A stretch of 64,000 bases of DNA from an uncultured bacterium (GTDB taxonomy: Bacteria > Verrucomicrobiota > Kiritimatiellia > CAIKKV01 > CAITUY01): contig CAIVSY010000053.1 of assembly GCA_903908715.1 (NCBI GenBank), forward strand, positions 1 through 64,000. The letters run 5' to 3'. The notes under the pieces are model-generated. The model saw only the letters and a list, made by a program, of their open reading frames with translations. It was not told the DNA's origin and searched no databases. This document shows positions 14,001 through 58,188 of this stretch, one piece after another. Positions within the stretch are counted from its first letter, which is position 1, and every line of letters begins with the position of its first letter. Position numbers and translations under genes: made by a program.

Positions 14001-17000
14001 GCGCCATTATTATAAGAGAACTGGATCAAGCAACCTCCGCCGGCGGCCGCATACTCCCAGAGCACATTCGTCATGACCCCCATCTTCCAGATCTCGGTTC
14101 CCAATGTCGGCGCCGTCACCCGGATACCGGAAATGCTGAACCTTTCCGAGATTGCAAACAGGGTGCCGCCTCCGATGGTCGACTCGACCTTGACACGGGT
14201 TGTCTCTCCCGGGATCGCGGGAATCGCCCAGGCGTAACTGTTCACGACAGGGAAGTCGCGGTTTGTGGTGGTCGCCACATAATTCCACGAAGCACCGTCG
14301 TCGATGGAGTAATAGATATTCACGTTCGTGCCCGCGCCGCCCGCGGTCCACTGGATAAAGTTCGTGGTGTTCTGGATCCAGACGTTTGTCGCGGTGGGCT
14401 GTTTGATGTCAATATCCGCCACAGTGAACGGCTGGGACACGCCGGTCACATTCGCATCCTGCCGGGCAACGATGCGAAGCCTTGCGATCGGGCTTGGGTT
14501 CCCGGATGTCACCAGCCAGTCATATCGGTTGGTGCCCACAGTATTCGCCACGCCCTGGGCGACATTGGTCCAGTTAACCCCATCCTCGGCGAAGTAGATA
14601 TCCACGCCGTTCGTACCGGCCCCGGATGACACCCATTCCACGGTCCCCGTGCTTCCGCGCTTCCATGCGGTGACGGAATTTGGGGTGACGAAACCGATAC
14701 CCGCGAGTACATACTCGTTATCCGAGATATCCGGATAACCGCCGAACGGGACGGTGATCCTCATGCGCGCATGCTCCGAGAGCAGGTCGTTGTTCGTGGC
14801 GGGTATTGACCAGAGATAGAGGTTGGTTCCGGACTGGTTGGGGATGTTCTCGTTGTTGATGCGGACCCAATCCGTCGTCGACCCGTTGCGATTGTAGTAC
14901 AGCCAGGCCACGCTACCCATGTTTGTCGGCGACAGCCAGGCGACCGAATCAGTCGTTCCGATATAGAACTTTTCCCCTCCGTTCGGGCGAGTCAGGCGGT
15001 AGCGGTAGGCCAGCTCGAAGAACGAGTCTGACTGGTCCGTGATGCTGGTGTCGGAGGAATCCGTAATGCGGATCAGGCAGTTGCTGCGGGCGGCCGACTG
15101 GTTCTGGCCCGGAGTGGTCCAAACGTACTCCCCGGTGTTCGGGGCATTACTGGTCACGACAGACCAGGAGGTTCCTCCATTATCCGAGAACTGGATGATC
15201 ATGGGGCCGTTCACTACCCCGGCATTGGTCCATGTGATCGTGTGGGGGACGCCGACGAGCCAGGCATTGTCCCCGACCTCCGTGCCGTTGGGCGCCGTCA
15301 CCAGCACACGCCCACGGGAATAGGTCAGCGTGGTGCTGTCCAGGGCCGTCTGGTTCAACCCGTCGGAATTGAGGAACGCCTTGAACTTGAATGTCCCTCC
15401 GGTCTTGGGATAAATCTGGGCAAAGAAGGCCCCGATGTTGTTGCTCACAGTTGAAAGGCTGCTGGCCATATCCCATCCCAGGCCGGTTACATCCTCCCAT
15501 GTTCCGGCGTTCCAGCGGTACCAGTTCACGCCGTTATTTCCGGAAATCTGATACCTTACAGAAGCATCCGTGTTGCTCGCCATCCTGTGCGAGAAGGCGA
15601 GCAGATGGCCGAAGAAATCCTGGCCAAACCCGTCCGCAGGCGCCACCCATGGATTATCCGTGGGATAGCTGGAGATAGCCACCTTGGCCCCTTGCGACCT
15701 CGGCCCCCAGCGGTAATCCTCCGTGGAATAATACAGGCGGTACTGGAAGTTGCTGTTCAATTCGATGATGCCGACAAGATACGCCAGGGTGGATTCCGTG
15801 AAGTATGTGTTGGTCGTCTTGTCGGGGCCGATAAACGGCCCGGGCACATCCCCCGTCCATGAGCGGCACTGCATTCTGGCGGTTGAAATCCCCGCCCGGT
15901 AATGGTCGTTAATCTCCTCGCCATTGCAGGGCCGGGAACGGAAGGCCACCTCGTCGATCCGGCCCGCGAAATCCCCGCTTCCGTTATAGGCGAGCCCGAT
16001 CCTGAAGGAGCCTGTATTGGCAACATCGGCACCGCCCAGGGCCGCCCGTGCCTGCATTACTCCATCCACATAGAGGCGCACCCAGTTGCCGTCATACACA
16101 CCCGCGATGTGGGCCCATTCCCTCATACGAAGGGGAACCGCCGCAGCAACCATCGTGCCATTGACCTGGAAATACGGCAACCCGCCTGCGTCCAATCCCA
16201 GGGTATATCCCGGCGTGCCGCCGTCCCGCTTGTCCACAATCACGCGGCTGAAGACATCACTTGGGTTCACCCAGGCTTCCACGGTAAACGTCAGGGTCTC
16301 CAGTGTCTCGTCATCTGCCACTTCAATCATCCGGTCTGAAGTCCCGTCAAAGGCCATGCAGGCCCCGAAGCGGCCGCTATTGGTCAACAGGGCGCCGCTG
16401 ACCGTTCCGTGATTGAGCTGAAGGCTCGAATCCAGTGTTGTGGTCCCGTTGGTCGTCGAATCCAGGTGCCACAGGCCGGACAGATCCGCGCCGTCGGCCA
16501 CCTGAGCCTTGCCGCAAGGCGTGTCGAGCCCCCACTTCATGAACTCCCAGATTGTCTTCTGCTTGCCGTCGAATACCGGACTGGTGTAACGACCTGCCGC
16601 AAGGCTGTTCGCCCCTGCGCCCGAGTAGGCGCCGATCTCCACCTCGCCGATAGCCCGGCTGAAAATGAACACCTCGTCCATTGCGCCCTTGAAATAGTAG
16701 TCCTGAGTCCCGTGTTTTCCCAGGTAAGCCTCACCCGTACCCACTCCGCCGTAGCCGGCTCCGAGGTCCAGCATCCCCTGGAGCGCGCCATCCACATAGA
16801 ACATCAACTGCCGGCCCTGTCGCACGCCGACCGCATGATGCCACGCTCCATCCGACAACGACATCAGAGGACGGCTGGCAATGGCCCTCTGGCCGCCGCC
16901 GTTCTTGACCACAAAGGCCATCCGCCCCGCCACCCCGACTACCCCGCCCGTGCTGTTGCACTCGATCGCGAAATAATCCCCGGCATTATAAGAGGAGACC

Positions 17001-19594
17001 AGTGCGCAATAATTCGTCGCCGAGGTCTTGAACCACCCGCCCACGCTGAAATCCAGGGTGCCGACGCCCAGGGGCGGAATGTAGACGGCATCTCCGGCTC
17101 CATCAAACGAACCACCCAACATTCCCACCTTGGCATCCGTCGAAGTCTTTGCATCCCCCTGGGCTGTTCCGTTGAAGCCATTCCCTGTGGCATCCTCCAC
17201 TCCGTTCAACGGCCAGCTTGTGTCATCCATATGCCAGAGGGCGAGCATCCCGCTGGTAGCGGCCGGGTTGATGGCAGGCGTCACGGATGCATTCAGGTCC
17301 GGCAGGGCGATCTCGTCACCGTACCAGCGGGTCCGGTCATCGTTGAATGTCCCCGCGTCCACTTCCTCAACGGTGTCATCCACATACGAACCGCCCGACG
17401 CGGTGGTAATCGTCACATTCTCCACGGCCGGTGTTGCCTCCCCGTCGCCGAGGAAGGTGACCTGATACTGGAAATACTGTCCTGCATAGCCACCCAGCGA
17501 GGAACCCGGGGTGTCGAAATAGCCGGGCAAAGTGGCCGGACCTGTGAAAGCTGCAGTTGGCGGGTTGTTGGTGCCCGCCCGGAACTGAAGGCGGACAGGG
17601 CCATTGACCGCAGTGCGTCGGCCGGCCACTGAATGTTCCGTGATTTCCGCGGAAGTGAGAGCCCGGTTATAGACTGCCAGTTCATCCATCCAGCCTGCGA
17701 GGTAGTCGCCGTTTGCGCGCCCCACAATCAGGGCCACGTTGGTCACGGCGAGATCCGAGACCACTGCCACATGATTCCACCCCGGGAGGAGGGTTCCGTG
17801 GGGCTTGCCATTCACATACGGGGTTACCACCGCGCCGGACGGGAAACCAACGGTGCCGATGAACCGGTTCGAGAACACGACATAGGTGGTGTTTGCCACA
17901 AGCTCAAGTATGCCGTCCGACATCTGTTCGGACCTCATCCACCACTCCACGCTTTGGATTGCACCCAGGGAAGCGATCGTCGCATAACTGGCCCCGCCGT
18001 CGAACACGGCAGACCGGTTGCCGAGCTTTGCCAGGTTCGTATAGGTCACGCCGCTTGCCGACCCGTTCTTGCCATTGCCCGAATCATCCCGCCAGTCCGC
18101 AAGATCGAAGCGCCACAATCCCCGCAATCCGAAGATATTCGTCGACTGCACATCCGTTCGTTTCCATGAGATCTGGTTAAAGTTGATCACGCTGCCCGCA
18201 TCGAGAACCCGGGACGTATAGGTGCCATTCGTGTAGTAACCTCCATTCAGTCCTTTGGCCAGTCCGAGATAGGGGGTGTCGGCCAGAGGCGGCACATTAG
18301 TCGTGCCCGCAAATTCTCCCTGCAGGTAATCTCCATATGTGGTATCAGCCGCAATGACCTTGGAGCCAACAAATGCAAACGACTCCAGTAACGGGCTTGC
18401 GGTCGGCTCTGCTGTTAAATAGGCCTTGTACTGGACAAACTGATGATAAGGGGAAAAGTTCGCGCTTGCATTCAATGAATCCCTCTCATTAACATAAAAA
18501 GTATTCACTGAACCATCCGGCCCGCAAAAAGCACCGCCCGGAGGATAAGAGGATGAAGACCGCACCTGTACGGCCAAGGAAGACGCACGCCGGTAGAGAG
18601 CTAATATCTCTTCTGCGGACAAGGCTCGGTCATAAACCAAGACTTCATCAATGAGCCCTTTTGAAGTTCGATCCGCGCTGTAATCATCGAACCCGATCTT
18701 CAAGTAATCGTCCTGGACAATGGTCCCGAAGGTCCCAGATTGCGATACAACAGGTAGGCCATCGAAGTAAAGGACTCGCTGTGTTCTGCTAATAGTGCCC
18801 GCGACAAATGTCCACCGCCCCGTCGCAATCGAAGTCGGCGAAATCATATACCCGCCTGCGGCAAGAACAATTCTGCCATTGTTCTGTTGTTCTAGACCCA
18901 AATAAGTTGATCCGGAGTAAGCAAGCAGAATACCGCCCCATGTACTATACGACGCAAGCTTGATCCAACAAGCAAAAGTCGCCTCGTTTTTCCCGTTCAA
19001 CAAACTGGAATCGGCTGTTATCACATGACTACTGCCATTCAGGCTTACGGCATGACTTCCGAACTTCGCCGCGGAAGAGAACGAAGGGGAGCCTACAGGC
19101 GTGCCAAAACTTCCCGCCTTGGAGTCCTGATAGTTGTTGTTGAGGTGATAGATCGCCACGATATTTGTTTCTGCCGGCAAGGCCTCACTTAAGCCGGGAG
19201 TATCGACAAGTTGCCGATTCGAGGCCTTGGTGCTGATGGCCTGCCACTGGTTCAAACTGCCGCCATCAAATACTCGGGAGACATAAGTTCCCGACGCCTG
19301 ATATTGCTGGTTGGATTTCTCCACGCACACCGAAGCATCCGGCCCCACGTTGACATTCACTCGTTCCGTACCGTTGGAATAAAGATATTGCGGCATCCGG
19401 GCATCATAAGCGGACTCGGAACGCAGTTTCAGTTTGGCCACATCATCCGCCACCTCGATCTTGACTGGATCCGAGACAACATATTCGGTTGACGTGGTAA
19501 AGGGCCATGTATTGGTCAAGGCCGAAGCCAGCAAGGTGCCGAAAAGCGTCATGCTTACGGCAACACTAACAATCCGAAAACGGTTTGCATTCAT
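8006..19594 (-). CDS. Giant secreted modular protein: signal peptide, four LamG/ConA-like domains, Kre9/Ig-like 'PNGGE' repeats, long LTN decapeptide-repeat stalk, helical C-terminus
   Basis: Single open frame of 3876 codons in track (19636); MNANRFRIVSVAVSMTLFGTLLASAL is the better start (ATG 19592-19594). LamG-like: LWHLDSTTNGTTTLDSSLQLNHGTVSG...FDGTSDRMIEVADDETLETLTFTVEAWVNPS...WAHIAGVYDGNWVRLYVDG. Ig-like: LTRPNGGEKFYIGTTDSVAWLS..., ISKPNGGEEYYSQKPTFVEWTTLG. Repeats: LTNLTPQMAALTNSMARLSS... Confidence 0.9.
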   Translation of the reverse strand: MNANRFRIVSVAVSMTLFGTLLASALTNTWPFTTSTEYVVSDPVKIEVADDVAKLKLRSESAYDARMPQYLYSNGTERVNVNVGPDASVCVEKSNQQYQASGTYVSRVFDGGSLNQWQAISTKASNRQLVDTPGLSEALPAETNIVAIYHLNNNYQDSKAGSFGTPVGSPSFSSAAKFGSHAVSLNGSSHVITADSSLLNGKNEATFACWIKLASYSTWGGILLAYSGSTYLGLEQQNNGRIVLAAGGYMISPTSIATGRWTFVAGTISRTQRVLYFDGLPVVSQSGTFGTIVQDDYLKIGFDDYSADRTSKGLIDEVLVYDRALSAEEILALYRRASSLAVQVRSSSSYPPGGAFCGPDGSVNTFYVNERDSLNASANFSPYHQFVQYKAYLTAEPTASPLLESFAFVGSKVIAADTTYGDYLQGEFAGTTNVPPLADTPYLGLAKGLNGGYYTNGTYTSRVLDAGSVINFNQISWKRTDVQSTNIFGLRGLWRFDLADWRDDSGNGKNGSASGVTYTNLAKLGNRSAVFDGGASYATIASLGAIQSVEWWMRSEQMSDGILELVANTTYVVFSNRFIGTVGFPSGAVVTPYVNGKPHGTLLPGWNHVAVVSDLAVTNVALIVGRANGDYLAGWMDELAVYNRALTSAEITEHSVAGRRTAVNGPVRLQFRAGTNNPPTAAFTGPATLPGYFDTPGSSLGGYAGQYFQYQVTFLGDGEATPAVENVTITTASGGSYVDDTVEEVDAGTFNDDRTRWYGDEIALPDLNASVTPAINPAATSGMLALWHMDDTSWPLNGVEDATGNGFNGTAQGDAKTSTDAKVGMLGGSFDGAGDAVYIPPLGVGTLDFSVGGWFKTSATNYCALVSSYNAGDYFAIECNSTGGVVGVAGRMAFVVKNGGGQRAIASRPLMSLSDGAWHHAVGVRQGRQLMFYVDGALQGMLDLGAGYGGVGTGEAYLGKHGTQDYYFKGAMDEVFIFSRAIGEVEIGAYSGAGANSLAAGRYTSPVFDGKQKTIWEFMKWGLDTPCGKAQVADGADLSGLWHLDSTTNGTTTLDSSLQLNHGTVSGALLTNSGRFGACMAFDGTSDRMIEVADDETLETLTFTVEAWVNPSDVFSRVIVDKRDGGTPGYTLGLDAGGLPYFQVNGTMVAAAVPLRMREWAHIAGVYDGNWVRLYVDGVMQARAALGGADVANTGSFRIGLAYNGSGDFAGRIDEVAFRSRPCNGEEINDHYRAGISTARMQCRSWTGDVPGPFIGPDKTTNTYFTESTLAYLVGIIELNSNFQYRLYYSTEDYRWGPRSQGAKVAISSYPTDNPWVAPADGFGQDFFGHLLAFSHRMASNTDASVRYQISGNNGVNWYRWNAGTWEDVTGLGWDMASSLSTVSNNIGAFFAQIYPKTGGTFKFKAFLNSDGLNQTALDSTTLTYSRGRVLVTAPNGTEVGDNAWLVGVPHTITWTNAGVVNGPMIIQFSDNGGTSWSVVTSNAPNTGEYVWTTPGQNQSAARSNCLIRITDSSDTSITDQSDSFFELAYRYRLTRPNGGEKFYIGTTDSVAWLSPTNMGSVAWLYYNRNGSTTDWVRINNENIPNQSGTNLYLWSIPATNNDLLSEHARMRITVPFGGYPDISDNEYVLAGIGFVTPNSVTAWKRGSTGTVEWVSSGAGTNGVDIYFAEDGVNWTNVAQGVANTVGTNRYDWLVTSGNPSPIARLRIVARQDANVTGVSQPFTVADIDIKQPTATNVWIQNTTNFIQWTAGGAGTNVNIYYSIDDGASWNYVATTTNRDFPVVNSYAWAIPAIPGETTRVKVESTIGGGTLFAISERFSISGIRVTAPTLGTEIWKMGVMTNVLWEYAAAGGGCLIQFSYNNGATYTNVGGPGYPLLSRQFDYAPDFPSVQCRVRVQASDPGFTNVADVSDNYFTVAGLKTTKPTAGAMYTMGWATNDAILWYSAGTLNDSVKITYAPDDGAEVTVLPTTPNDERYPGSNVREWTPSFDMDPSEVGRVKVVTESVSGTYTGLSANFTLRGVRLTAPSLGSVLRIGADETIQWLTAGFDPGALGDFFLSTDGGATYGTTPLLPLPILLDLRQATWSVDSGADPTINAVIKMVVTNASIPFVAYSPTFTLRGLRILSPATNNNWAIGTTNQIQFLAASAGTFVNVYYSQDGVTYDTARPVAVNVPISNGLHTVTWVIESFREPSATSRIKVQSATQTDFAISAPFTIRGVKVLRPMSTDIWSLGETNSIIWLSIGTEGTNTVDLVRPDNTVFPIASNITATSYDWVIPVESVGTNLRVRVTDSGGSVGYSQPFRIVTEPTIEVVSPVEGVFWKLNKSYWIEWSKAGNVTPSFTVEYSLNDFVTSVQIIGTPTFTNGVFRQSWTPSDPTRLGAAKIRVTNNNNTNITDISAGFYLSPNITISKPNGGEEYYSQKPTFVEWTTLGRVPYVDLYYSTDLARRPEYWVKVNEEGPIADRGHEQLSQFLWTVANVRSPIVWLRVQDAAYTNRFDAAVEGPYDDTDALFSILYYRIYWRVYNAANTNSLSSLSVVDSAGWSESGLNSTNLILHEYPYGRFNTIWSREFFYDKVVFNWLSEPSRTNDVPMTQSEVAPDFRVMANFSYDATGLVFRSTSWIEKGGRILTEATRSIVTIYDSAGALVATLSTTTRDLNGVFWQTLPTGMAEGRVYFAKVQVEFSGTLYTAGVTFQLTVPQGSEMQEALALLNQVNTNVTDLATAQAAFRQSVNAKLDTLTNAADVILAGVTNLDLKVSDLSTQALARLETLTNTLGVIGPGSSNTVLELLDQLRSDVAGTAARILTRPTSVKAGSSFNVLFRHQPLLNVTITVTRVSGGAPVYSDTMGELTGGVYEELLTAAWGTGDFVVMCSDDAGGNDRMVIKVTTWELDDLAGTMSGISNQIAGVERSMSNLVLVASNTDRNVSGLVTNLSTLMADVDDIYLTVSNMPGQLAYLTNNIGQVAGLTNLSGSVAAMTSAVSQIIALTNMATQIDNLGALTNLTPQMAAVTSSVARLSAITNSINTMSSQMNYMTNVINQIVVLTNINPAVAAMTTAVAQVTVLTNMSSQLNYVTNVVGQMGVLTNLTPQMAALTNSMARLSSITNQLNTMSSQMNYMTNVIDQVVVLTNISPVVSTLTNAVGQITVLTNMSGQLAYVTNVVGQMGVLTNLTPQMAALTNSMARLSGITNQINTVSSQMSYVTNVINQIAALTNINSAVSAMTNSVAQIAGLTNVGAQLNFVTNALVSMQGLTNLSAQVGSLTNVPGMLASLTNMPVQLGSLSNVMGQLSGLTNLPSQMAGLTNVVTDLMGLTNLTEQVAVMTNAIGQVSGLTNLGARIDYLTNTVGQLSGLTNISGQVAIITNSIGQISGLTNLGARIDYLTNTIGQLGGLTNISGQVAGLTNLPSQMADVTNLVGKLAGITNLSDQVAVMTNAIGQVASLTNLGSRVDYLTNAVGQLSALTNVTDQLAGVSNALTQVIAVTNLSGQMASLASSVNQLAGLTNLPAQLSDISAIVSQLGNMTNDMNDVVASISQLGSLTNIGAQVDGLVDAVAGLGVVTNLGVQIQQVADVVGTLVPLTNFNERMDGLATTLGQLGGLTNLGTQVEQLSGVIGEIMALTNVATQVEGLSADMATLMDSTATLSNSLAALTAAMGSVGSTSTNLQLAIMDAAEMSSNMLSSIEERLGYVTDPAGADTVFGQLTTIEQGLTGVGGTAKQTLQKATSARTEAQNAATAIGEVKKRIGAGQLNQALEDLAVIRQALGAAAEQMRGVASTMTTEDLVKSIRDAMSKIDEMAKARGLQPLGQPADELQAGSLTDPQTVAKLLNSIAETKAMMDAMRVLMDEAVNKPVVVDWLEGAGE
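9421..9660 (-). repeat. Near-identical 120-bp tandem duplication in the repeat stalk
   Basis: 9421-9480 and 9541-9600 share 'aagctgtccga..gtgttggtcagataatcaatgcgggcacccaggtttgtca'. Confidence 0.85.
9842..10597 (-). repeat. Three consecutive 252-bp (84-aa) super-repeats inside the decapeptide region
   Basis: 'ccatctgcggggtcaggtt' at 10069, 10321 and 10573 (spacing exactly 252); each translates to 10+10+14+5x10 residues starting LTNLTPQMAA. Confidence 0.9.
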
Positions 19595-19805
19595 ATGGAC
19601 CACCTTGGAATCATTCCACAAGAACCTCAACGTCACTGATTACTTAATGTGAGATTACCACAGGGCTATATAAAACTGAATGTCAAAGAAATGTGAATAA
19701 GTTCCAGGGATGCAGGGTTGTCGACTGGAGGGCGGCAGGCCAATGCCGCCGACATACCAATCAGGTTGCCTCCTTGTCACTCTGCAACCTGACCACCCGT
19801 GAGAG

Positions 19806-20678
19806 CTATCCCTTCCTTAGCACGCACGAGAGGCTGTGGGCCAACATCCCGGGCCCGATTCCCGGAACACCTGCAGCGATGACGGCCAGACGACGGTTCA
19901 TGCCGCCCGGCACACCTGCCCGGGCCGCCAGAAAGCGCCGTCCGCGATTCCCTGCATCGAGGTTCCGGTACCCCGGGCCAAACCCGTAGCGAATCGTCCA
20001 GGGCCAGACACCCCGGTCCCAGGACCGACTCCTGAAGCGATCCAGAAAGCGGGGAACATAATTGACCCACCAACTGCGGGAATGGACTTCCCTGGGCCAC
20101 AACCGGTTACTGGTCCCCGTCACAACGACGACTCCGCCCGGCTTCAACACCCGATCCAGTTCCCGTTGCACATCCGCAAGCATGAAACAGGGCACGCACT
20201 CCAGGACGCTGGCGCAATTGATCAGGTCAAAGGCATCGTCGGGGAAGGGGAGTCGCCGGGTATCGGGGACATGGAGAAACTTGAGAGAAGCGGTTGAAAA
20301 TGGAGGGCGTTGCGCTGTCGGCGCCGCGTCTTGGTATGTCGGCGGCAACGGCGTGCCGCCCTCCACCAGGGGAAACCCGTACCGCCGGGCATTCATCAAT
20401 GAGAGAGCAATCCAGTCTGCAGACACATCCACGGCGGTCACATTGGCCCCCAGACAGGCAAACACGATGGCAGAGCCGCCGACATTGCTTCCGAACTCGA
20501 GTACATCCTTGCCTGCCGCCTCGATCCCGTAGGCCGCCAGGAAGGGCGGCAGTTTCCGCCATTGGTAGTCGACATACCCCCCGACCCAGACGCTGGCGGG
20601 GTCATAGCCCATGGCTCGGCTTTTTTGCTGAAATAAAGCATCGTCCTCGGGGGACGTTATGACGGGTATGGGATTCAT
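19806..20678 (-). CDS. Class I SAM-dependent methyltransferase with in-frame palindromic repeat insertion
   Basis: MNPIPVITSPEDDALFQQKSRAMGYDPASVWVGGYVDYQWRKLPPFLAAYGIEAAGKDVLEFGSNVGGSAIVFACLGANVTAVDVS...FDLINCASVLECVPCFMLADVQRELDRVLKPGGVVVVTGTSN; N-terminal ORF extension to 20864 is REP sequence. Confidence 0.8.
   Translation of the reverse strand: MNPIPVITSPEDDALFQQKSRAMGYDPASVWVGGYVDYQWRKLPPFLAAYGIEAAGKDVLEFGSNVGGSAIVFACLGANVTAVDVSADWIALSLMNARRYGFPLVEGGTPLPPTYQDAAPTAQRPPFSTASLKFLHVPDTRRLPFPDDAFDLINCASVLECVPCFMLADVQRELDRVLKPGGVVVVTGTSNRLWPREVHSRSWWVNYVPRFLDRFRSRSWDRGVWPWTIRYGFGPGYRNLDAGNRGRRFLAARAGVPGGMNRRLAVIAAGVPGIGPGMLAHSLSCVLRKG
20301..20365. repeat. Palindromic element (full bipartite copy) inside methyltransferase CDS
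   Basis: tggagggcgttgcgctgtcggcgccgcgtcttggtatgtcggcggcaacggcgtgccgccctcca; read as EGGTPLPPTYQDAAPTAQRPPF. Confidence 0.9.
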
Positions 20679-20730
20679 GTAATGATGCTCCGCTCTATTG
20701 GATTTGCAGCATCGGCGCTGCACGCCCTTC

Positions 20731-20860
20731 ACGCTGTGTAGTAGCGGCTGTCTCAGCCGCGCTCTGCTCCTCAGCGCTGCACGCCCTGCGTCTTGTGTAG
20801 TAGCGGCTGTCTCAGCCGCGCTCTGCTTCTCAGCCGCGCTCTGCTCCTCAGCCGCGTTCT
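20731..20860. repeat. REP-like GTAGTAGCGGCTGTCTCAGCCGCGCTCTGCT copies
   Basis: gtgtagtagcggctgtctcagccgcgctctgct twice, plus tctcagccgcgctctgct-type half copies. Confidence 0.9.
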
Positions 20861-20890
20861 TCACGTCTCATGCCATGCACATTCGCGTTT

Positions 20891-21541
20891 CTAGACCTCC
20901 CCGATTTGCATGATCTCGCCGCGATATGGCCAGGCATCCCAATTTGCAACCAAGCCTTTACGTACCGGATTGTCACGCACGTAGCACCATTTCTCCCGGT
21001 AGCTCTCATTGTGACGCAGCAGATGATCGAAGAACCCATCCTGCCAGATGGAGATGGAGGTCGGCTGCGAAGAAAAGGCGCCGCCGGGGACGGCGGCTAC
21101 TACACGCCCTGCGTCTTGTGTAGTAGCGGCTGTCTCAGCCGCGCTCTGCTGCCCCGGCGCTGCACGCCCTGTGTCCTGTGTAGTAGCGGCTGTCTCAGCC
21201 GCGCTCTGCTTCTCAGCCGCGCTCTGCTCCTCAGCCGCGCTCCTCTGCTGGGCATACGCCTTTCCCATCACGCGCTTGAGTCCGCGAACCCACGGCCCCA
21301 ACTTCGTGTCGCCGCCGATCCGCACGAATAGGTGGACATGATCGGGCATGATCACGTATTGCCCCACCCCTACCCCATGCTCCAGTGCCGCCTCCGCGTA
21401 CGAGCGAAAGGCATCATGGAGAATCGGTGTCGCCAGAACAGGACGGCGATTCAGTGTGCAAAAGGTAATAAAATAAAGTGGCGGCGTGTAATCCTGAAAA
21501 ACAAAAGGCAACCGAGGTGGGCGGTGTATAGCGTTGGGCAT
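20891..21541 (-). mobile_element. REP-associated tyrosine transposase (RAYT, Y1_Tnp/TnpA_REP-like) with REP copies inserted in its own CDS
   Basis: PLYFITFCTLNRRPVLA...YVIMPDHVHLFVRIGG...LGPWVRGLKRVMGKAYA[...]IWQDGFFDHLLRHNESYREKWCYVRDNPVRKGLVANWDAWPYRGEI; HUH motif HVH and YVRDNPV; ~60-aa insert QSAAETAATTQDTGRAAPGQQSAAETAATTQDAGR is REP sequence. Confidence 0.85.
21080..21245. repeat. REP-like copies inside the RAYT CDS
   Basis: cgccggggacggcggctactacacgccctgcgtcttgtgtagtagcggctgtctcagccgcgctctgct...gtgtagtagcggctgtctcagccgcgctctgcttctcagccgcgctctgct. Confidence 0.9.
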
Positions 21542-21560: not shown

Positions 21561-21726
21561 GTGTAGTAGCGGCTGTCTCAGCCGCGCTCTGCTCTCAGCC
21601 GCGCTCTGCTCTCAGCCGCGCTCTGCTCTCAGCCGCGCTCTGCTCTCAGCCGCGCTCTGCTCTCAGCCGCGCTCTGCTCTCAGCCGCGCTCTGCTCTTCG
21701 GCGCGGCCGGGACGGCCGCTACTACA
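21561..21726. repeat. REP-like element with terminal inverted repeats GTGTAGTAGCGGC/GCCGCTACTACAC and seven tandem 17-bp units
   Basis: ctcagccgcgctctgct x7 from 21577 to 21695, flanked by gtgtagtagcggctgt and ggccgggacggccgctactacac. Confidence 0.95.
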
Positions 21727-23248
21727 CGGGCTGTGCGCTTGGGCGTTTACCTGCAATATACCGCGCCAGGATCCGCCACCACTTGCGCGAGACCTTTCGG
21801 CCAGAGGCCCAATAATTGGCATAGGCCCGCACCCACAATTTCACGGCCGCCAGCCGGTCGCCCCGCTCAAACGCCATCCAACTCCCCTGCTGGCACTGGA
21901 TCGACACCGCCGCCGGCTTGTATTCAGGCAGGGCCGACAACGCGCCCCCGGGCGCGAAGGCCTTGTCCAGCACCCGCAATACCTGCGGCAGGAACGTGCG
22001 CTCATCCCGGCTCAGGCTTCCCGGCGTTTCCCGGTAGTACACCAACGGGGCATTGATGTGCCCGATATTGGGAGGAAGGAAGACTTTAGACTTTAGACTA
22101 TAGACATTAGACGCAGCAGATGAGGGGACTTTAGACTTTAGACCATAGACTTTAGACCTGAGCCCCGCACTTCCCGTATTCTCGTCTACGGTCTCTCCTC
22201 CCTCTCCCTGGTCTAAGGTCTGTAGTCTGTAGTCTGTAGTCTGTAGTCTGATATCTGCCGTCTGCCCTCCCTCCTTACCCCTTTCCCCTTGCCCCTTACC
22301 CTTCTGCCCTCCCCCTAAGGCTGCGACCCGCATCCACAGATCATAGTCCTCCGGCCCGCGGAAGGACTCATCGAACCCGCCAGCGGCCAGCAGCGCCTCC
22401 CGCCGTACGAGAACCGTGGATGTCGCCACGCAGTTATGCCAGGCAAACTCTTCCAGCGGAATGAAGATGACTTTAGACTTTAGACTGTAGACATTAGACC
22501 GTGCCGTGTTTGGTGGTCCATTGTCTCCAGTCTCCAGTCCGTAGTCCGTCGTCCGTGGTCCGTGGCCCGTTGTTGGTTGTTGGTTGTTGGTTGTTCGTTG
22601 TCCGTCGTCCGTCGTCCGTAGTCCATCGTCTAAAGTCCATGGTCTATGGTCTATTGCCTGCAGTCCAGGGTCTATTGTCTGTTCTCCCACCCCCTCCGCA
22701 GTCCACTCCGCCCGGGGTCGGCAGTCCGTGGTCCGCAGTCCGTAGTCTCCCCCCCCCGCCACCCATCCACCACACCAGAGAACGACATCGGGCCACTGGG
22801 CGGCGCAGGCCATCTGCCGTTCCAACTTGTCCGGCAGCCAGGCGTCATCGGCATCGAGGAAGGCGATCCATTCGCCGGTCGCTTCCCGTATGCCCGCGTT
22901 GCGGGCCGCGGCGGGGCCGGCGTTGCGGGGAAGAACGTGAAGAGTGACGGGTGACGGGTGACTGGCAATCCATTTCCTCACGACCGTGACCGTATCATCC
23001 GAGGAACAGTCGTCGACCACAATCACCTCGTAACGGGATTCGGGATTCGAGATTCGAGATTCGGGATTCGACAGTTGCAAGGATCCGGCATCCCGCAACC
23101 CGCATCCTGTATCCGGATTGAGGTCTGAGGTCTGTAGTCTGTAGTCTGTGGAGTCTGCTTTCGCCCAGTACGTCTGGGCGAAAGCAGACTCCAGCGCCTC
23201 CACGATCGTGGATGAGCTGTTATAGGCGGGGATGATGATGGAGATCAT
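21722..23248 (-). CDS. GT2 family glycosyltransferase with three heptanucleotide-derived in-frame insertions
   Basis: MISIIIPAYNSSSTIVEALESAFAQTYW...YEVIVVDDCSSDDTVTVVRKW...GPAAARNAGIREATGEWIAFLDADDAWLPDKLERQ...GGFDESFRGPEDYDLWMRVAALGG; inserts TDYRLQT..., DYGLRTTDDGQRTTNNQQPTTGHGPRTTDYG, LQTTDYRLQT...SNVYSLKSKVF. Confidence 0.85.
   Translation of the reverse strand: MISIIIPAYNSSSTIVEALESAFAQTYWAKADSTDYRLQTSDLNPDTGCGLRDAGSLQLSNPESRISNPESRYEVIVVDDCSSDDTVTVVRKWIASHPSPVTLHVLPRNAGPAAARNAGIREATGEWIAFLDADDAWLPDKLERQMACAAQWPDVVLWCGGWVAGGGDYGLRTTDCRPRAEWTAEGVGEQTIDPGLQAIDHRPWTLDDGLRTTDDGQRTTNNQQPTTGHGPRTTDYGLETGDNGPPNTARSNVYSLKSKVIFIPLEEFAWHNCVATSTVLVRREALLAAGGFDESFRGPEDYDLWMRVAALGGGQKGKGQGERGKEGGQTADIRLQTTDYRLQTLDQGEGGETVDENTGSAGLRSKVYGLKSKVPSSAASNVYSLKSKVFLPPNIGHINAPLVYYRETPGSLSRDERTFLPQVLRVLDKAFAPGGALSALPEYKPAAVSIQCQQGSWMAFERGDRLAAVKLWVRAYANYWASGRKVSRKWWRILARYIAGKRPSAQPV
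22080..22790. repeat. Degenerate heptanucleotide arrays (AGTCTGT / AGTCCGT / TTGTTGG / AGACTTT families)
   Basis: ctgtagtctgtagtctgtagtctgtagtctg; ccgttgttggttgttggttgttggttgttcgttgtccgtcgtccgtcgtccgtagtcc; agactttagactttagactatagacattagac. Confidence 0.9.
23036..23155. repeat. Heptanucleotide arrays GATTCGG/GATTCGA and AGTCTGT
   Basis: gggattcgggattcgagattcgagattcgggattcg; gaggtctgtagtctgtagtctgtgg. Confidence 0.9.
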
Positions 23249-23329: not shown

Positions 23330-23566
23330 CTATGGTCTAATGTCTACAGTCTCGCCCCCCTCCCGCCCCGCCTCTTCCACCAGCATGATAGGGATTCCGT
23401 CGCGGATGGGAAAGCGGAGGCCGCAGGCCGGATTCTGGCACACGATCCACCCGGTCACCGAGCCTCCGGCTTCCGGCGGCAACGGCGTGCCGCCCTCCAT
23501 TCGCACATCGCCCTTGCATTCCGGGCACGCCAGTATCTCCAGTAATTCCTGCCGAATCTCGCCCAT
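23330..23566 (-). CDS. Trm112-like zinc-ribbon protein with in-frame palindromic insertion
   Basis: LLEILACPECKGDVRMEGGTPLPPEAGGSVTGWIVCQNPACGLRFPIRDGIPIMLVEEA. Confidence 0.85.
   Translation of the reverse strand: MGEIRQELLEILACPECKGDVRMEGGTPLPPEAGGSVTGWIVCQNPACGLRFPIRDGIPIMLVEEAGREGGETVDIRP
23475..23499. repeat. Palindromic element half-copy inside Trm112-like CDS
   Basis: ggcggcaacggcgtgccgccctcca. Confidence 0.9.
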
Positions 23567-23593
23567 GATTTACCTCTCGCCTTGAAGATGATG

Positions 23594-23690
23594 GAACAGA
23601 AGGAAACAAAGGAAACGAAGCTGGGATTGATTGGTTTCCGCCGGAGGCGGAAGGAAAGGGCCTCTTTGTTACCTTCGTTAACTTCTGTTC
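23594..23690. repeat. ~97-bp imperfect-palindrome element (GAACAGAAGGAAACAAAGGAAACGAAG...ACCTTCGTTAACTTCTGTTC), copy A
   Basis: Homologous to 42030-42124 including right flank aactcctcgcattttggtctt / aactcttcgcatctggtctt. Confidence 0.85.
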
Positions 23691-23699
23691 AAACTCCTC

Positions 23700-23815
23700 G
23701 CATTTTGGTCTTCCGTCTCCAGTCTCCTCTTCCCGTAGTCCGTAGTCCGTCGTCCGTAGTCCCTCCCCTCCCCTCTCCCAATAGTCTAACGTCCAACGTC
23801 TACAGTCTCCCCCCC
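23700..23815. repeat. Heptanucleotide array (AGTCCGT/GTCTNNN family)
   Basis: gtctccagtctcctcttcccgtagtccgtagtccgtcgtccgtagtcc...agtctaacgtccaacgtctacagtctcc. Confidence 0.8.
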
Positions 23816-23985
23816 TCCCGCCCCGCCTCTTCCACCAACATGATCGGGATACCTTCCCGGATCGGGAACTGCAACCCGCATTCCTGACTCTCACACCGGA
23901 TATAATTTCCTTCCTGTCGGACTGGACTCTTGCAAATCGGACAAGCAAGGATATTCATTAAGTCCTTTGATACGGCGCAAGTCAT
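23800..23985 (-). CDS. Trm112-like zinc-ribbon protein (paralogue without palindromic insertion)
   Basis: LMNILACPICKSPVRQEGNYIRCESQECGLQFPIREGIPIMLVEEAGREGG. Confidence 0.85.
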   Translation of the reverse strand: MTCAVSKDLMNILACPICKSPVRQEGNYIRCESQECGLQFPIREGIPIMLVEEAGREGGRL

Positions 23986-30342: not shown

Positions 30343-30425
30343 GCGGCGGCGACAGCGCGCCGCCCTCCAGAACCGGAGCAAGATGGTGATTCCTTCACAT
30401 GGAGGGCGGCGCGCTGTCGCCGCCG
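30343..30425. repeat. Two palindromic element copies in opposite orientation
   Basis: gcggcggcgacagcgcgccgccctcca ... tggagggcggcgcgctgtcgccgccg. Confidence 0.9.
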
Positions 30426-40733: not shown

Positions 40734-40797
40734 TGGAGGGCGCCGCGCTGTCGGCGCCGTTCTTCCCACACCGGCGGCAACGGCGTGCCGCCCTCCA
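40734..40797. repeat. Palindromic element, full bipartite intergenic copy
   Basis: tggagggcgccgcgctgtcggcgccgttcttcccacaccggcggcaacggcgtgccgccctcca. Confidence 0.95.
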
Positions 40798-40826: not shown

Positions 40827-41918
40827 CTATAGTCCAACGTCCCCACTTACCATTCTCACGACTTCCCACCACGCACCGATCGCCTCCCGATACTTCGGGG
40901 GCCACAAGGCGGCCTTGATCAGATCCCGTTTGAAGGCCCTCCTGACCCGCCTCCATTCCGCCTCTTCCCCCTTCCCGTCCGTCGTCCGTAGTCCGTAGTC
41001 CGTAGTCCTATAAACACGCCCCAGCAACTCAATCCGCCGCCACCGGTCCCGGCCATGCACATTCGCCGCCGGCCGGCGCATGAGGCTCACGTCCTCGAGC
41101 GACAGGCCTGAGAACCCCGCCGCGCGAAGGTTTTCCAGCGCGATTTGGTCCGCGCAGGCCTGCTGCTCCTGATACCTGGCGAACGTGATGGCGTTGGCAT
41201 GGTTGCGAATCAACACCAGCGGCTCGGCCAGATTCGCCGCCCGCCCCCGGCGCATCAACGCCGACCACAGTCCGTAGTCCTGGGCATAGCGCAGCGATTC
41301 ATCATATTCCAACCGGTCCCTGGAGGGCGCCGCGTCCGCCCTGAGCAGCGTCGTAGGGCTGTCGGCGCCGCTCTTCGAACCATCGGCGGCAACGGCGTGC
41401 CGCCCTCCATCAATACCCTGCCGCCACATCACGCTGGAATGTCGGAACCCATTCTGCAGCAACAGGTTCCACCGCAGTGCTCGATCGCCCAGCAGCGGGA
41501 TCACCGGTTGTGGGTCAACCCGCCCAGCCTCGTCAATCCATTGCCAGCCGCACCCGAGCAACACGACATCCGGATGTGCCTCAAGGAACTCCACCTGGCG
41601 GGCCAGCCGTTCGGGACGTGAGACATCGTCGTCATCCTGGCGGGCGATATAACGCCCCGTGCAACGGGCGAGGCCGATGTTCAGGGACTTGGTGAGCCCC
41701 ACGTTGGCGGGGTTGGTGATCCGCCTGATCCGGGGATCTGAGTAGCTGTCAAGGATCGCCGCCGTCCGATCCGTTGACCCGTCATCCACGATGACGAACT
41801 CGAAATCCGTGAAGGTCTGGGCCAGGACCCCGTCCACGGCCTCGCGCAGGTACCGTTCGCCGTTGTAAACGGCCATGAGGACGCTGACGAGGGGGGGGGA
41901 TGAGGGGGAGGGGTTCAT
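40827..41918 (-). CDS. GT2 family glycosyltransferase with in-frame composite palindromic insertion
   Basis: PLVSVLMAVYNGERYLREAVDGVLAQTFTDFEFVIVDDGSTDRTAAILDSYSDPRIRRITNPANVGLTKSLNIGLARCTGRYIARQDDDDVSRPERL...VMWRQ[GIDGGRHAVAADGSKSGADSPTTLLRADAAPS]RDRLEYDESLRYAQDYGLW. Confidence 0.92.
   Translation of the reverse strand: MNPSPSSPPLVSVLMAVYNGERYLREAVDGVLAQTFTDFEFVIVDDGSTDRTAAILDSYSDPRIRRITNPANVGLTKSLNIGLARCTGRYIARQDDDDVSRPERLARQVEFLEAHPDVVLLGCGWQWIDEAGRVDPQPVIPLLGDRALRWNLLLQNGFRHSSVMWRQGIDGGRHAVAADGSKSGADSPTTLLRADAAPSRDRLEYDESLRYAQDYGLWSALMRRGRAANLAEPLVLIRNHANAITFARYQEQQACADQIALENLRAAGFSGLSLEDVSLMRRPAANVHGRDRWRRIELLGRVYRTTDYGLRTTDGKGEEAEWRRVRRAFKRDLIKAALWPPKYREAIGAWWEVVRMVSGDVGL
41321..41409. 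repeat. Palindromic element, 89-bp copy (extra ~24 bp within) inside GT2 CDS
   Basis: tggagggcgccgcgtccgccctgagcagcgtcgtagggctgtcggcgccgctcttcgaaccatcggcggcaacggcgtgccgccctcca. Confidence 0.92.
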
Positions 41919-42163: not shown

Positions 42164-43495
42164 CTAATGTCTAATGTCTACAGTCCCTTTGCCTCCCCCC
42201 ATCACCTTGCGATACACCGCCAGTTCCATCTCCACGATCCGGTCCAGGCTGTAGTGTTCGACCGCGAACTGGCGGGCGTTGCGGCCCAGGCGCTCACGGA
42301 GAGCGGGGTCCCCCATCATCCGCACGATCGCCGCCCGGAGGCTGACCGGGTCCGTACCGCACAGCAGCCCGGTCTCCTCATGCCGGATGACCTCCCGGAT
42401 CCCGGGCACGTCCGTGCCGATCACAGGCATCCCGCAGGCCATCGCCTCGATCAGGGTCTTGGGATGGCCTTCGTACAACGAGGGCAGGACGAAGAACGCA
42501 TTCTGGCGCAGGATGCCCGCAATCTGCGAATGCGGAACGTTTCCCAGAAACTGGACATTCACCTGGTGCGCCTGTGCCAAAGTCGCCAATTCATTGTGTA
42601 GCGACCCCTCCCCGACCAGGACCAGACGCAGATTCAATCCCTCCGAGGCAGCAATGAGTGCTGCCAGGTTCTTTTGCTCAGCCAACCGCCCAACGAAACA
42701 CCCGCTGGCGGCCACGGGCGCCCCCGCAGTGGCCACAGCTTCGGCAAAAGGCCCCGCGGATGTTCCTGTCGACGTCTTTGCGCCAATCCTGACTTGGCTC
42801 GAAGAATCATTACAACCGCTCATCGACAGGGACATATCCCCCCTGGAGGGCGGCACGCTGTTGCCGCCGTCCCCAAGCGCCGAGAAATCCACGTAATTCG
42901 GAATAACGGTAATCTTTTCGCCCTCTATGCCATAGTTCCGGATCAGCACCTGCTTCGCATCTTCCGTTGTGACTACGCACTGGCTCGCACAGCGGAATGC
43001 CTTCGCCTCCATCCGCCTTGCCTCATTCGCCTCGCGGGAACAGGCCCCATAAGCCCGCTCCTCGAATTCAGACCACAAGTACCCGCAACGTGCCACCAGA
43101 GGTTTGCGCCACAGCCGAGCCGCACATACGGCAACATCTGATCCCTTCATCTGGTTCGTCTTCAGAATATCCGCGTGTCGCAATACGCGCCAGTGGATGA
43201 AGCACGCCATTCTATAATAGAGATCCTCGGGCAAATTCCACGAATTGCAAACTATTCCTATGCCATGCATCCGAGCTGCGTACTTGAGTTCATTCCTGCC
43301 CCCATATGTCAGAAATACAACCTCAACGCCGCGCTTACGAAGCTCCCTGTATACCGCAATCTCTCTTTCCAGGATTCCTATTGTATCCCAAGCCGCCAAG
43401 GACATGCCCTTTGTAAAAATCACAATCACGTTGAGCCGGCTATAATTTGTCGTAGCGCTTTGCTGCAATGCCAAGGTTGTTGATTGATTGATCAT
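42164..43495 (-). CDS. GT4 family glycosyltransferase with palindromic insertion
   Basis: CFVGRLAEQKNLAALIAASEGLNLRLVLVGEGSLHNELATLAQ...FFVLPSLYEGHPKTLIEAMACGMPVIGTDVPGIREVI; GDGGNSVPPSRGD is repeat-encoded. Confidence 0.92.
   Translation of the reverse strand: MINQSTTLALQQSATTNYSRLNVIVIFTKGMSLAAWDTIGILEREIAVYRELRKRGVEVVFLTYGGRNELKYAARMHGIGIVCNSWNLPEDLYYRMACFIHWRVLRHADILKTNQMKGSDVAVCAARLWRKPLVARCGYLWSEFEERAYGACSREANEARRMEAKAFRCASQCVVTTEDAKQVLIRNYGIEGEKITVIPNYVDFSALGDGGNSVPPSRGDMSLSMSGCNDSSSQVRIGAKTSTGTSAGPFAEAVATAGAPVAASGCFVGRLAEQKNLAALIAASEGLNLRLVLVGEGSLHNELATLAQAHQVNVQFLGNVPHSQIAGILRQNAFFVLPSLYEGHPKTLIEAMACGMPVIGTDVPGIREVIRHEETGLLCGTDPVSLRAAIVRMMGDPALRERLGRNARQFAVEHYSLDRIVEMELAVYRKVMGGGKGTVDIRH
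42844..42869. repeat. Palindromic element half-copy inside GT4 CDS
   Basis: tggagggcggcacgctgttgccgccg. Confidence 0.92.
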
Positions 43496-54913: not shown

Positions 54914-55864
54914 ATGCATATTCTTCTCACCATCGACATCGAATCCGCCTACGGCGACTACGAACGGGACGTCCATGCGGGCGGGCTGGGGCTGGATTAT
55001 CTGCTCGCCTCGCTGCAGGCGTCGGGACTGAAGGGCACGTTCTTCGTCGAAGCCGCCAGCGCGACGGCTAGGCCCGAGGCGGATCTCGCGGACACGTGCC
55101 ACCGGATCCTGGCGGCCGGCATGGACCTCCAACTCCATGTCCACCCTGAAATGGCCGCCCTGCCCGGCATCCTCAATACCGACGGCGTCCTGTGGCGCAA
55201 CACCCGCGGGGAACAGGCCCGCCTGATCGCCGCCGGGCGGGACAGACTTGCGAAACTCACAGGGTGCAGTCCCGTCGCCTTCCGCGCCGGGAGTCTCACG
55301 GCCAACACCGACACGCTGCTCGCTATGAAGGATTGCGGCCTCACGCTCAGCTCGAATCGGGATCTGGACACTCATAGCTCCATCGAATCGCGGCTGAATG
55401 ATGTCTTTCCCGTAGTAAATGATGTTTCCACCTTCATGGGCATTACCGATATCCCTGTCTCGGCTTTCCGCAGTCCCCTGCCACGGCTGGATGGCGCATG
55501 GCGCCATCTCGAACCTTGCGCCTTGAGCCTGGGGGAAATGACCTCCGCACTCACCGCTATGCACCGGGCTGGTTACCACTCCGCTTGCCTCTTGACGCAT
55601 CCTCATGAGTTTTACTACCGCCTTGGCAACCGCTACCATATCAACCATATCAACCGCCGCCGCTGGGAAGGCCTCCTCAAATTCCTCAAGTCAGCACCCT
55701 GGGCCAAGGTCACGACCTTCGCCTCCCTCCCATCTCTCCTCACGTCTCATCCCTCACCCCTCACCCCTCACCCATCCCCCCCACCCATCAGACTCCCTGT
55801 TTTCTGGAGCCTGTACAGGCTTGCGGAACAGGCTCTGAAAAGGGTACACGGGGTGAGCCGTTAG
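54914..55864 (+). CDS. Polysaccharide deacetylase-family protein
   Basis: MHILLTIDIESAYGDYERDVHAGGLGLDYLLASLQASGLKGTFFVEAASA...CHRILAAGMDLQLHVHPEMAALPG...VAFRAGSLTANTDTLLAMKDCGLTLSSN. Confidence 0.85.
   Translation: MHILLTIDIESAYGDYERDVHAGGLGLDYLLASLQASGLKGTFFVEAASATARPEADLADTCHRILAAGMDLQLHVHPEMAALPGILNTDGVLWRNTRGEQARLIAAGRDRLAKLTGCSPVAFRAGSLTANTDTLLAMKDCGLTLSSNRDLDTHSSIESRLNDVFPVVNDVSTFMGITDIPVSAFRSPLPRLDGAWRHLEPCALSLGEMTSALTAMHRAGYHSACLLTHPHEFYYRLGNRYHINHINRRRWEGLLKFLKSAPWAKVTTFASLPSLLTSHPSPLTPHPSPPPIRLPVFWSLYRLAEQALKRVHGVSR
55738..55780. repeat. Heptanucleotide array (TCACCCC family) inside deacetylase CDS
   Basis: ctcacgtctcatccctcacccctcacccctcacccatcc encoding LLTSHPSPLTPHPSP. Confidence 0.8.
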
Positions 55865-57063
55865 GCGGTAACGGCGTGCCCCCCCTCCAGAGTCGCCTTG
55901 GATTGAGCAAACACGGCGTCATACTCCTTCAACATGCGGTCGAGTGAAAAGGCTTCAGCCCAGCGGCGCCGCCCTTCCATCCCCATCCGCGCACGGGCAA
56001 CATGATCACTGGCGAGGGAACACAAGGCCCGGGCCACAGCAGCGCAGTCACCAGGATCCACCAGAACCCCCGTGTGACCATCCTCGACTATTTCAGGAAT
56101 CCCCCCAAGCCGGCTTGCCAGAACCGGCCGACCGGCCCGCATAGCCTCCAATAACACAAATCCAAAGGCTTCAGGTTCGGCCGACAACAAGACGGCCACA
56201 TCACCCGCGGCCAGACAGGCCGCACCATCTGGTCGGTTTCCCAGAAAGAGAACGCTTTCTGAAATACCAAGTGTCCGGGCCAGCTCCCGGGCTGCGTCCA
56301 GCCGCTCACCATCACCAACCAGCACAGCCCGCGCGTTCCGCATGCCCGCATCCACTGCCATTTTCCAGGCATTCAGGAACCCCTCCTGCCCCTTCCAGGA
56401 ATAGAAACGGGCCACATATACAAAATCCACAAAACCGGTCTTCCTCGCAGGATAATCAGATTGCAAGGGCATCTCTGAATCAGGCAATCCATGATGGATC
56501 ACACCGCCTTTGACCGTTGCGCGTCCAAGTTTACAGGCCCATAGCGCCCTGACTGCACTCGAGTTGTAGATAACGCCTGAAACACAATGATAGCAAAGGC
56601 GTTCGATCAGGGAACGGACCACATGTCTGGCCGCCATATCCTGCCCGGGATGTGTATGTGCAATGGCCAATATCTTCCGCCGCGGGAAAACCCATCGCAA
56701 TGCCAAGGGCAGCGTTTCACAACCAAACTGGTTGGTCAGCAGTACCGCGCCCGTGACGGAAGACCGGATTCGTCTGAGAAAGCGGACATCTTCCCTGAAA
56801 CGGGTCCCATACCCCAGCAGGAGAAGCATGGATCTCATGGCGGAATGCCTCGTCAACCAGGAGGTATTACCCGGCCTCACCGCTTCCGGAACCACACCCC
56901 CGGTGTTCGATCCGGGGTCAAATGGCAATTCAATGAATTGAATGCCCCTTCCGCGCCATTCCGCCTCAACCAACTGCACAAAGGTCGATGTCCCTGCAGG
57001 ATCCTTCCTCCAATTCCCATGAATAAAGTAGGTGACCGATAAACGGGACATCACAAAATCCAC
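55861..57063 (-). CDS. GT4 family glycosyltransferase (C-terminus formed by palindromic element)
   Basis: VLLTNQFGCETLPLALRWVFPRRKILAIAHTHPGQDMAARHVVRSLIERLCYHCVSGVIYNSSAVRALW...FVYVARFYSWKGQEGFLNAWKMAVDAG...VAVLLSAEPEAFGFVLLEAMRAGRPVLASRLGGIPEIV; ends LEGGHAVTA. Confidence 0.92.
   Translation of the reverse strand: MDFVMSRLSVTYFIHGNWRKDPAGTSTFVQLVEAEWRGRGIQFIELPFDPGSNTGGVVPEAVRPGNTSWLTRHSAMRSMLLLLGYGTRFREDVRFLRRIRSSVTGAVLLTNQFGCETLPLALRWVFPRRKILAIAHTHPGQDMAARHVVRSLIERLCYHCVSGVIYNSSAVRALWACKLGRATVKGGVIHHGLPDSEMPLQSDYPARKTGFVDFVYVARFYSWKGQEGFLNAWKMAVDAGMRNARAVLVGDGERLDAARELARTLGISESVLFLGNRPDGAACLAAGDVAVLLSAEPEAFGFVLLEAMRAGRPVLASRLGGIPEIVEDGHTGVLVDPGDCAAVARALCSLASDHVARARMGMEGRRRWAEAFSLDRMLKEYDAVFAQSKATLEGGHAVTA
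55864..55889. repeat. Palindromic element half-copy at convergent gene ends
   Basis: ggcggtaacggcgtgccccccctcca. Confidence 0.85.
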
Positions 57064-57100: not shown

Positions 57101-58186
57101 CTAAATCAGACCCCGGTAGGACACTATCAGCGCCCTGTCCATCAGCGGAACCTCCGCCTTGCGCCCCAGGAAATAGAATCCTGATGCCGCGTCGTAAGCC
57201 GCCGGCTTCCGGGATAGCCAGCCATCGAGATACTTGAGCCAGAATGCCGTGAGGCGTCCGGCCATAAAAGCCAGCCGGCGCCCGCTTCTGGAGGAGCAAC
57301 AACTCATCAGGAAGTACTGCCAGGACCACGCCAGCGCCGTTCCCGGGCCGCAGGCAATACCACTATCAATCTCGGAAAAGTCGCGAAACAGGCGACGATG
57401 CCCAAGGTGCGTGTAACGTGTGAAATCATAGCAGCCGCCGTGGACCTGCTGCATAAAAGGGGTTTCGGCATACACCACGCCACCGGGCGCCAGTACCCGG
57501 TGAATCTCCGCAACGGCCCGCGCCGGATCGGGTAAGTATTCCAGCACCGCCTGCGCCACCACCCCATCGAATGTTCCATCGGCAAAAGGAATATCCTGCG
57601 CATCGCACACCAACCCGGTCCGCGAACCGAAACCAATGTCGGTTTCGACGAGTTCAATAGCAGGATCGCTCAAGAGGGCGTCAAACCCCACCCCGGCTTC
57701 CGCACCACCAAGGACAAGTACTCTGGGAGGCTCCTGCCATGCAGGTGCCGACAACGCGGCGCCCTCCAGAGAACACCGGGAATTGGAGGGCGACACGCCG
57801 TTGCCGCCGTTCCCTGCCGTTGGATCAAGGCTGTTCCTCTCACCTCGCACCCTTTGCTTCACCAGGCTCGCGAATTCCGGCAATACCCGCGCCGCACAAA
57901 CATTGCCCGTGATGCCGGGGAGAACACGATAGAGGAATCCAGAACCTTTCCGCCGACCTTCGGCAGCGGCGGTCACCCCACCCGAACGATAATCGGAAAT
58001 CGAAACAAGACTGCGGGATTCGTTCAGCAGCACGGGAATCCCTTCCACCACCGGAAAACCCTTTGCACAAGCCGGCGCCATACAGGTGAACGAGGTGACG
58101 CCCGAAGTCAGCACACCCCCGCAAACGGGGCAGCGCAAGGCCTGCACAATGGCTTGACTGAACCGCAGGTTGTCTGCCCCGTTCAT
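57101..58186 (-). CDS. Methyltransferase with N-terminal Trm112-like zinc ribbon and internal palindromic insertions
   Basis: VQALRCPVCGGVLTSGVTSFTCMAPACAKGFPVVEGIPVLLNES...GTFDGVVAQAVLEYLPDPARAVAEIHRVLAPGGVVYAETPFMQQVHGGCYDFTRYTHLGHRRLF; GNGGNGVSPSNSRCSLEGAALSAPAW is repeat-encoded; extension to 58546 overlaps the upstream gene. Confidence 0.88.
   Translation of the reverse strand: MNGADNLRFSQAIVQALRCPVCGGVLTSGVTSFTCMAPACAKGFPVVEGIPVLLNESRSLVSISDYRSGGVTAAAEGRRKGSGFLYRVLPGITGNVCAARVLPEFASLVKQRVRGERNSLDPTAGNGGNGVSPSNSRCSLEGAALSAPAWQEPPRVLVLGGAEAGVGFDALLSDPAIELVETDIGFGSRTGLVCDAQDIPFADGTFDGVVAQAVLEYLPDPARAVAEIHRVLAPGGVVYAETPFMQQVHGGCYDFTRYTHLGHRRLFRDFSEIDSGIACGPGTALAWSWQYFLMSCCSSRSGRRLAFMAGRLTAFWLKYLDGWLSRKPAAYDAASGFYFLGRKAEVPLMDRALIVSYRGLI
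57745..57809. repeat. Two palindromic element copies in opposite orientation inside CDS
   Basis: gtgccgacaacgcggcgccctcca ... tggagggcgacacgccgttgccgccg. Confidence 0.9.
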
Positions 58187-58188
58187 GA

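Follow-up and report, generated by a model that had tools for sequence, protein, structure and literature searches.

Short palindromic repeats that carry a tetranucleotide tag and sit inside genes have been known for some time. Di Nocera et al. 2013 (PMC3733652) reported repetitive extragenic palindromes (REPs) with GTAG and CGTC tags inside genes, with Opitutus terrae holding the most intragenic GTAG REPs, and the Rickettsia palindromic elements (RPE) RPE-4 and RPE-6 listed as CGTC repeats. A second line of work deals with REPtrons, where REPs bearing a tetranucleotide at the hairpin foot flank the gene of a transposase (RAYT or TnpA-REP) and occur as inverted pairs (PMC2817692, PMC6006769, PMC8266576). 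The tag of RAYT-linked REPs has been given as GT[A/G]G (PMC6006769, PMC3686654), movement of the element as single-stranded DNA has been proposed (PMC8266576), and more than 100 copies are usual for REPs (PMC2817692).

The element studied here lies in frame in one of two tandem Trm112-like genes of an uncultured bacterium of the class Kiritimatiellia, and it shares features with all of these systems. As with the intragenic GTAG REPs of O. terrae (PMC3733652), small palindromes with a tag occur in frame in genes of a verrucomicrobial host, either alone or paired as inverted dimers, but the tag here is GGAG instead of GTAG/GTGG or CGTC, and both stem and loop are different. Similarly to the RPE, it is a palindromic repeat in frame in protein-coding genes, whereas RPE-4 and RPE-6 are members of the CGTC superfamily (PMC3733652). 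REPtrons share with it the tetranucleotide at the hairpin foot, the REPs flanking a transposase and the inverted pairs. Their tag is nevertheless GT[A/G]G, and GGAG is absent from the texts searched; within that literature, made up of open-licence papers, no text had both RAYT and GGAG as a tag. What is already known is therefore the in-frame, intragenic REP, and what is new is a GGAG tag associated with a separate RAYT clade, together with a clean contrast between paralogues, an internal control that the available portions of PMC3733652 do not report for O. terrae. We consider it very probable that the palindrome is a GGAG-tagged, non-autonomous REP of the kind mobilized by RAYT (TnpA-REP) transposases, a copy of which landed in the turn of a Trm112 domain with some 14 additional nucleotides, in frame, and persisted.

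The window, that is, the whole stretch of 64,000 nucleotides analysed, holds the two genes on its minus strand, where copy A (23800..23985, 61 aa) is followed about 230 bp away by copy B (23330..23566, 78 aa). Both match the Trm112p profile PF03966 (34.5 bits for A and 38.1 for B, with a Pfam cut-off of 22 bits) and keep the four Cys ligands, as found in the Trm112/UPF0434/YcaR zinc ribbons. The two copies are 62% identical, and their last 28 coding bases are the same within a 92-nt stretch at 78% identity. The turn between the Cys pairs of copy B is 13 residues longer, with 25 residues in B versus 12 in A, which makes exactly 13 codons or 39 nt. An earlier note on this DNA, which had recognized the two Trm112-like genes and put their difference at about 13 residues or 39 bp, was thus right on both counts, and precisely so on the second. 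It had also held that this difference coincides with a 25-bp palindrome at 23475..23499; the palindrome does lie wholly within the loop between the Cys pairs of copy B, but the codon alignment of both copies attributes to it no more than 25 of these 39 nt. An AlphaFold model of copy B places the residues encoded by the palindrome, with modest confidence, in the turn between two strands (a beta-hairpin) of a Trm112-like fold whose best structural matches are archaeal Trm112 proteins; because just two sequences stand behind this low-depth model (mean pLDDT 65), it serves as an illustration only. A search of a plasmid collection with copy B gave no match. Methyltransferase genes are found near the pair, and a third Trm112-like domain (~31% identity) is fused to a methyltransferase in the gene at 57101-58546, with a pair of the same palindromes in the linker.

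The identity of the gained element, which the earlier note had not named, is that of a mobile REP element. On the minus strand it reads TGGAG-GGCGGCA-CGCCGT-TGCCGCC (coding-strand sequence TGGAGGGCGGCACGCCGTTGCCGCC), encodes M-EGGTPLPP and is an exact copy of a dispersed family. The GGAG tag stands directly at the foot of a hairpin with a 7-bp stem and a 6-nt loop, with a folding energy of -8.6 kcal/mol as single-stranded DNA (z -2.1). Ten matches with up to three mismatches were observed in the window, against 0.01 expected by chance, and the consensus TGGAGGGCGSCRCGCYGTYGSCGCC finds at the same tolerance 14 copies in the genome, 12 of them on this contig, versus one for the reversed control; this number is below the one usual for REPs. 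The family is widespread in Verrucomicrobiota: it extends to 34 of the 59 related genomes, reaching 89 copies in one, and GTDB MAGs of Opitutae, Lentisphaerae and Chthoniobacterales contain it in exact form. A perfect 7-bp stem was kept by 199 of the 212 copies gathered through their GGC/GCC arm ends, a search pattern that fixes the outer three pairs, and compensating pairs were found at four stem positions, where the inner pairs exchange G-C/C-G, C-G/T-A and G-C/A-T. Copies are often arranged in inverted pairs, and 43 adjacent pairs of REPs in the relatives keep one fixed inverted spacing with the heads pointing outward, and the inverted pairs of the window at 20301-20365 and 40734-40797 have the same outward form, which is that of a BIME or REPIN. 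Published REP cleavage sites have a CT dinucleotide immediately 5' of the tag; this family shows no preference for it, with CT preceding the tag in 46 of 210 copies.

Transposases of the RAYT family (NF047646) were detected in 54 of the 59 related genomes. Around 56 of their loci, the commonest repeated tetranucleotides at the feet of hairpins were GTAG and GGAG, with 10 loci each, followed by GGGA with 6. In a maximum-likelihood tree of 52 RAYTs, the five whose flanking hairpins combine a GGAG foot with a 7-bp stem and a 6-nt loop, coming from five genomes (L037, L043, L202, L211 and L221, where the label of L202 was set by hand because its flanking hairpins carry one mismatch), form a single clade with a support of 100/97. 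This clade is nested in a wider one of seven GGAG-flanked RAYTs (support 88/81), and three more RAYTs with GGAG flanks are placed elsewhere in the tree. The REPs that flank the transposase in the REPtrons of L202 and L221 have the form TGGAGGGCG..CGCYGT and belong to the family of the window. The tag is GGAG in the copies of the window as well as in those linked to a RAYT, which sets the family outside the GTAG and CGTC superfamilies. On balance, we favour the view that the GGAG REPs and their own RAYT clade make up an undescribed class of Verrucomicrobiota REPs beside those two superfamilies, and that the two Trm112 genes offer a natural comparison, with and without the element, for how a folded zinc ribbon takes up a REP.

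Two transposases of this genome were considered as partners of the GGAG REP and rejected. The RAYT of the window (20891..21541, minus strand; NF047646 88.4 bits, cut-off 80) belongs to the other class, since it is flanked by GTAG-type GTGTAGTAGCGGCTGTCTCAGCCGC hairpins and falls in the GTAG clade, and the second Y1 transposase, on contig C57, is longer, of a different type and without GGAG hairpins. The gene of the window RAYT carries itself in-frame REP hairpins of the GTAG type (21103, 21120 and 21180) that split its NF047646 match in two. No RAYT of the GGAG class was found in the assembly, which is 91% complete, and accordingly we infer mobilization from the relatives; the partner may be encoded in the missing part of the genome, may have been lost, or the island may be of foreign origin.

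Copy B is not the only gene of the window with a REP of this family; 4 of the 10 well-matched copies are located inside genes. A REPIN of 65 nt (20301..20365) lies in frame in a methyltransferase gene (19806-20864), where the protein has ~28 extra residues in comparison with PDB 1ve3; no homologue of this methyltransferase without the insert was found among 194 genomes. Two glycosyltransferase genes carry single REPs, one at 41385..41409 on the minus strand, read as GGRHAVAA (gene 40827-41918), and the other at 42844..42868 on the plus strand, antisense to a GT4 glycosyltransferase gene (42164-43495) and read as GGNSVPPS. Two REPs with adjacent heads sit at 57744..57808, just before the methyltransferase domain of the Trm112-methyltransferase fusion, and a methyltransferase ORF (30395-31216) has another two in the same arrangement at its 3' end (30345..30424). 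The intergenic copies include a REPIN of 64 nt with both heads outward (40734..40797) and a divergent copy with three mismatches (19726..19750, plus strand), while a second divergent copy, with two mismatches (55864..55883, plus strand), provides a glycosyltransferase ORF (55861-57063) with its final codons. All six frames of the REP are free of stop codons, which explains its presence in several genes and frames of the window. In the MAGs of verrucomicrobial relatives, REPs of the same family were found in frame in the genes of FtsK (motor domain), PriA and HsdM (L165:3556-3580, L148:375-399 and L062:1501-1525). According to a simple home-made ORF caller, 31 of 205 copies in the relatives are within predicted genes and 168 are intergenic, a clear depletion with 81% of the bases lying in genes. 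It is reasonable to conclude that most intragenic insertions are lost, and that the survivors are those in tolerant loops and with a length divisible by three.

Whether the longer loop was gained together with the palindrome had to be judged on homologues from other genomes. Among 11 standalone Trm112 homologues of the same class from outside the window, the loop between the Cys pairs measures 12 residues in nine, 14 in one and 37 in one (L016/L232), and it likewise has 12 residues, as counted from the alignment, in SCO3027 (PDB 2kpi). A short loop in most outgroups indicates that this is the ancestral state and that the long loop of copy B is derived, and the latter coincides with the REP; the alignment thus speaks against an ancestral long loop and in favour of the gain in frame, within a folded domain, that the earlier note had proposed. 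It could still be argued that the palindrome is unconnected with the change in length: the loop would have been long beforehand, or have been extended by ordinary slippage, and the palindrome would have arisen or been acquired in it as a separate event. In this regard, the 37-residue loop (L016:1357-1602), which has no match to the GGAG REP and from its sequence would be an independent expansion of the same turn, tells us that this turn tolerates insertions in general and that its growth does not need a REP. Moreover, 14 of the 39 gained nucleotides lie outside the REP, and the TGGAG tag reaches into codons that have their homologues in the QEG of the paralogue. Against such an independent origin stand the 12-residue loop of nine of the 11 homologues and the exact 25-nt identity of the palindrome with a dispersed family, and we regard it as improbable. 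The 14 nucleotides outside the REP are contained in its flank on the 3' side in the coding sense (23450..23474, minus strand; ggaagccggaggctcggtgaccggg), as deduced from the codon alignment of A and B. They have no second copy anywhere in the window, and no convincing match to a decayed second REP was seen in them by eye. On the other hand, the spacer of paired REPs in the window is 14-15 nt long, so that a REP plus its spacer makes ~39-40 nt, equal to the gain of copy B, an agreement that is only suggestive of an origin of the 14 nt from a spacer.

Two further possibilities attribute the palindrome to selection at the locus instead of to the spread of a mobile element. One of them takes the peptide EGGTPLPP as the selected feature, a linker or binding motif of the protein, and the DNA palindrome as incidental, in line with its presence both in the methyltransferase (at 20341) and in Trm112 copy B. 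The REP peptides of other genes, however, are different (GGRHAVAA, GGNSVPPS, EGGHAVTA) because frames and orientations differ, many copies are intergenic and the stem covaries as DNA, so that this proposal is very improbable and, as far as sequence can tell, refuted; the variety of genes and frames points to mobile DNA tolerated in a loop and not to a protein motif. The other one sees in the REP of copy B a cis-acting RNA signal, such as an attenuator or an RNase-stabilizing hairpin, selected for the regulation of the operon. The element does form a stable hairpin, and REPs located close to gene 3' ends are believed to work as RNA elements (PMC3733652), but the REP of copy B sits within the coding sequence and its positions in other genes vary, which makes a regulatory role at this site quite unlikely.

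In the preferred reading of a mobilized REP, the hairpin would most likely have been transferred or duplicated in single-stranded form by a RAYT of the GGAG class, and a copy would have entered one of the tandem Trm112 genes, in the turn that separates its two zinc-binding Cys pairs. The REP and ~14 nt of flanking or spacer DNA, which presumably arrived together with it, would have added 39 nt to the gene, a length divisible by three. The reading frame of copy B stayed open and the insertion persisted because the GC-rich REP is free of stops in its six frames and because the turn tolerates additional residues; the longer protein probably still works. We would then have a small repeat inserted in the turn of a zinc-binding domain of ~60 residues with its frame intact, and an unaltered paralogue 230 bp away as the internal control. 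In addition, GGAG would be a REP tag outside the two published superfamilies and tied to one branch of the RAYTs. A second natural tag with a transposase clade of its own makes the reading of the tag by RAYTs testable through a comparison of the two clades.

The 67-kb contig of the window (C53) is a polysaccharide island that holds, along with the 12 GGAG REPs, all GTAG REPs of the type searched for. Its GC content of 54-58% is below the range of 59-63% seen in the other contigs that were sampled. A degenerate heptamer, GTCYGTA, forms arrays in and between genes (21722-23248, 23700-23810 and 40980-41010), and the typical heptamer repeats are also present on contigs C39, C43 and C105, an argument for assigning the contig to this genome. 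Both Trm112 ORFs terminate within such arrays, and in a GT2 ORF (21722-23248) the heptamers are read in frame as DYGLRTTDYGL-like repeats. Repeated sequence of another kind is seen in the ORF at 8006-19636, whose 3876-aa product contains LamG-like stretches as well as an extended region of ...LTNLSGQ... repeats.
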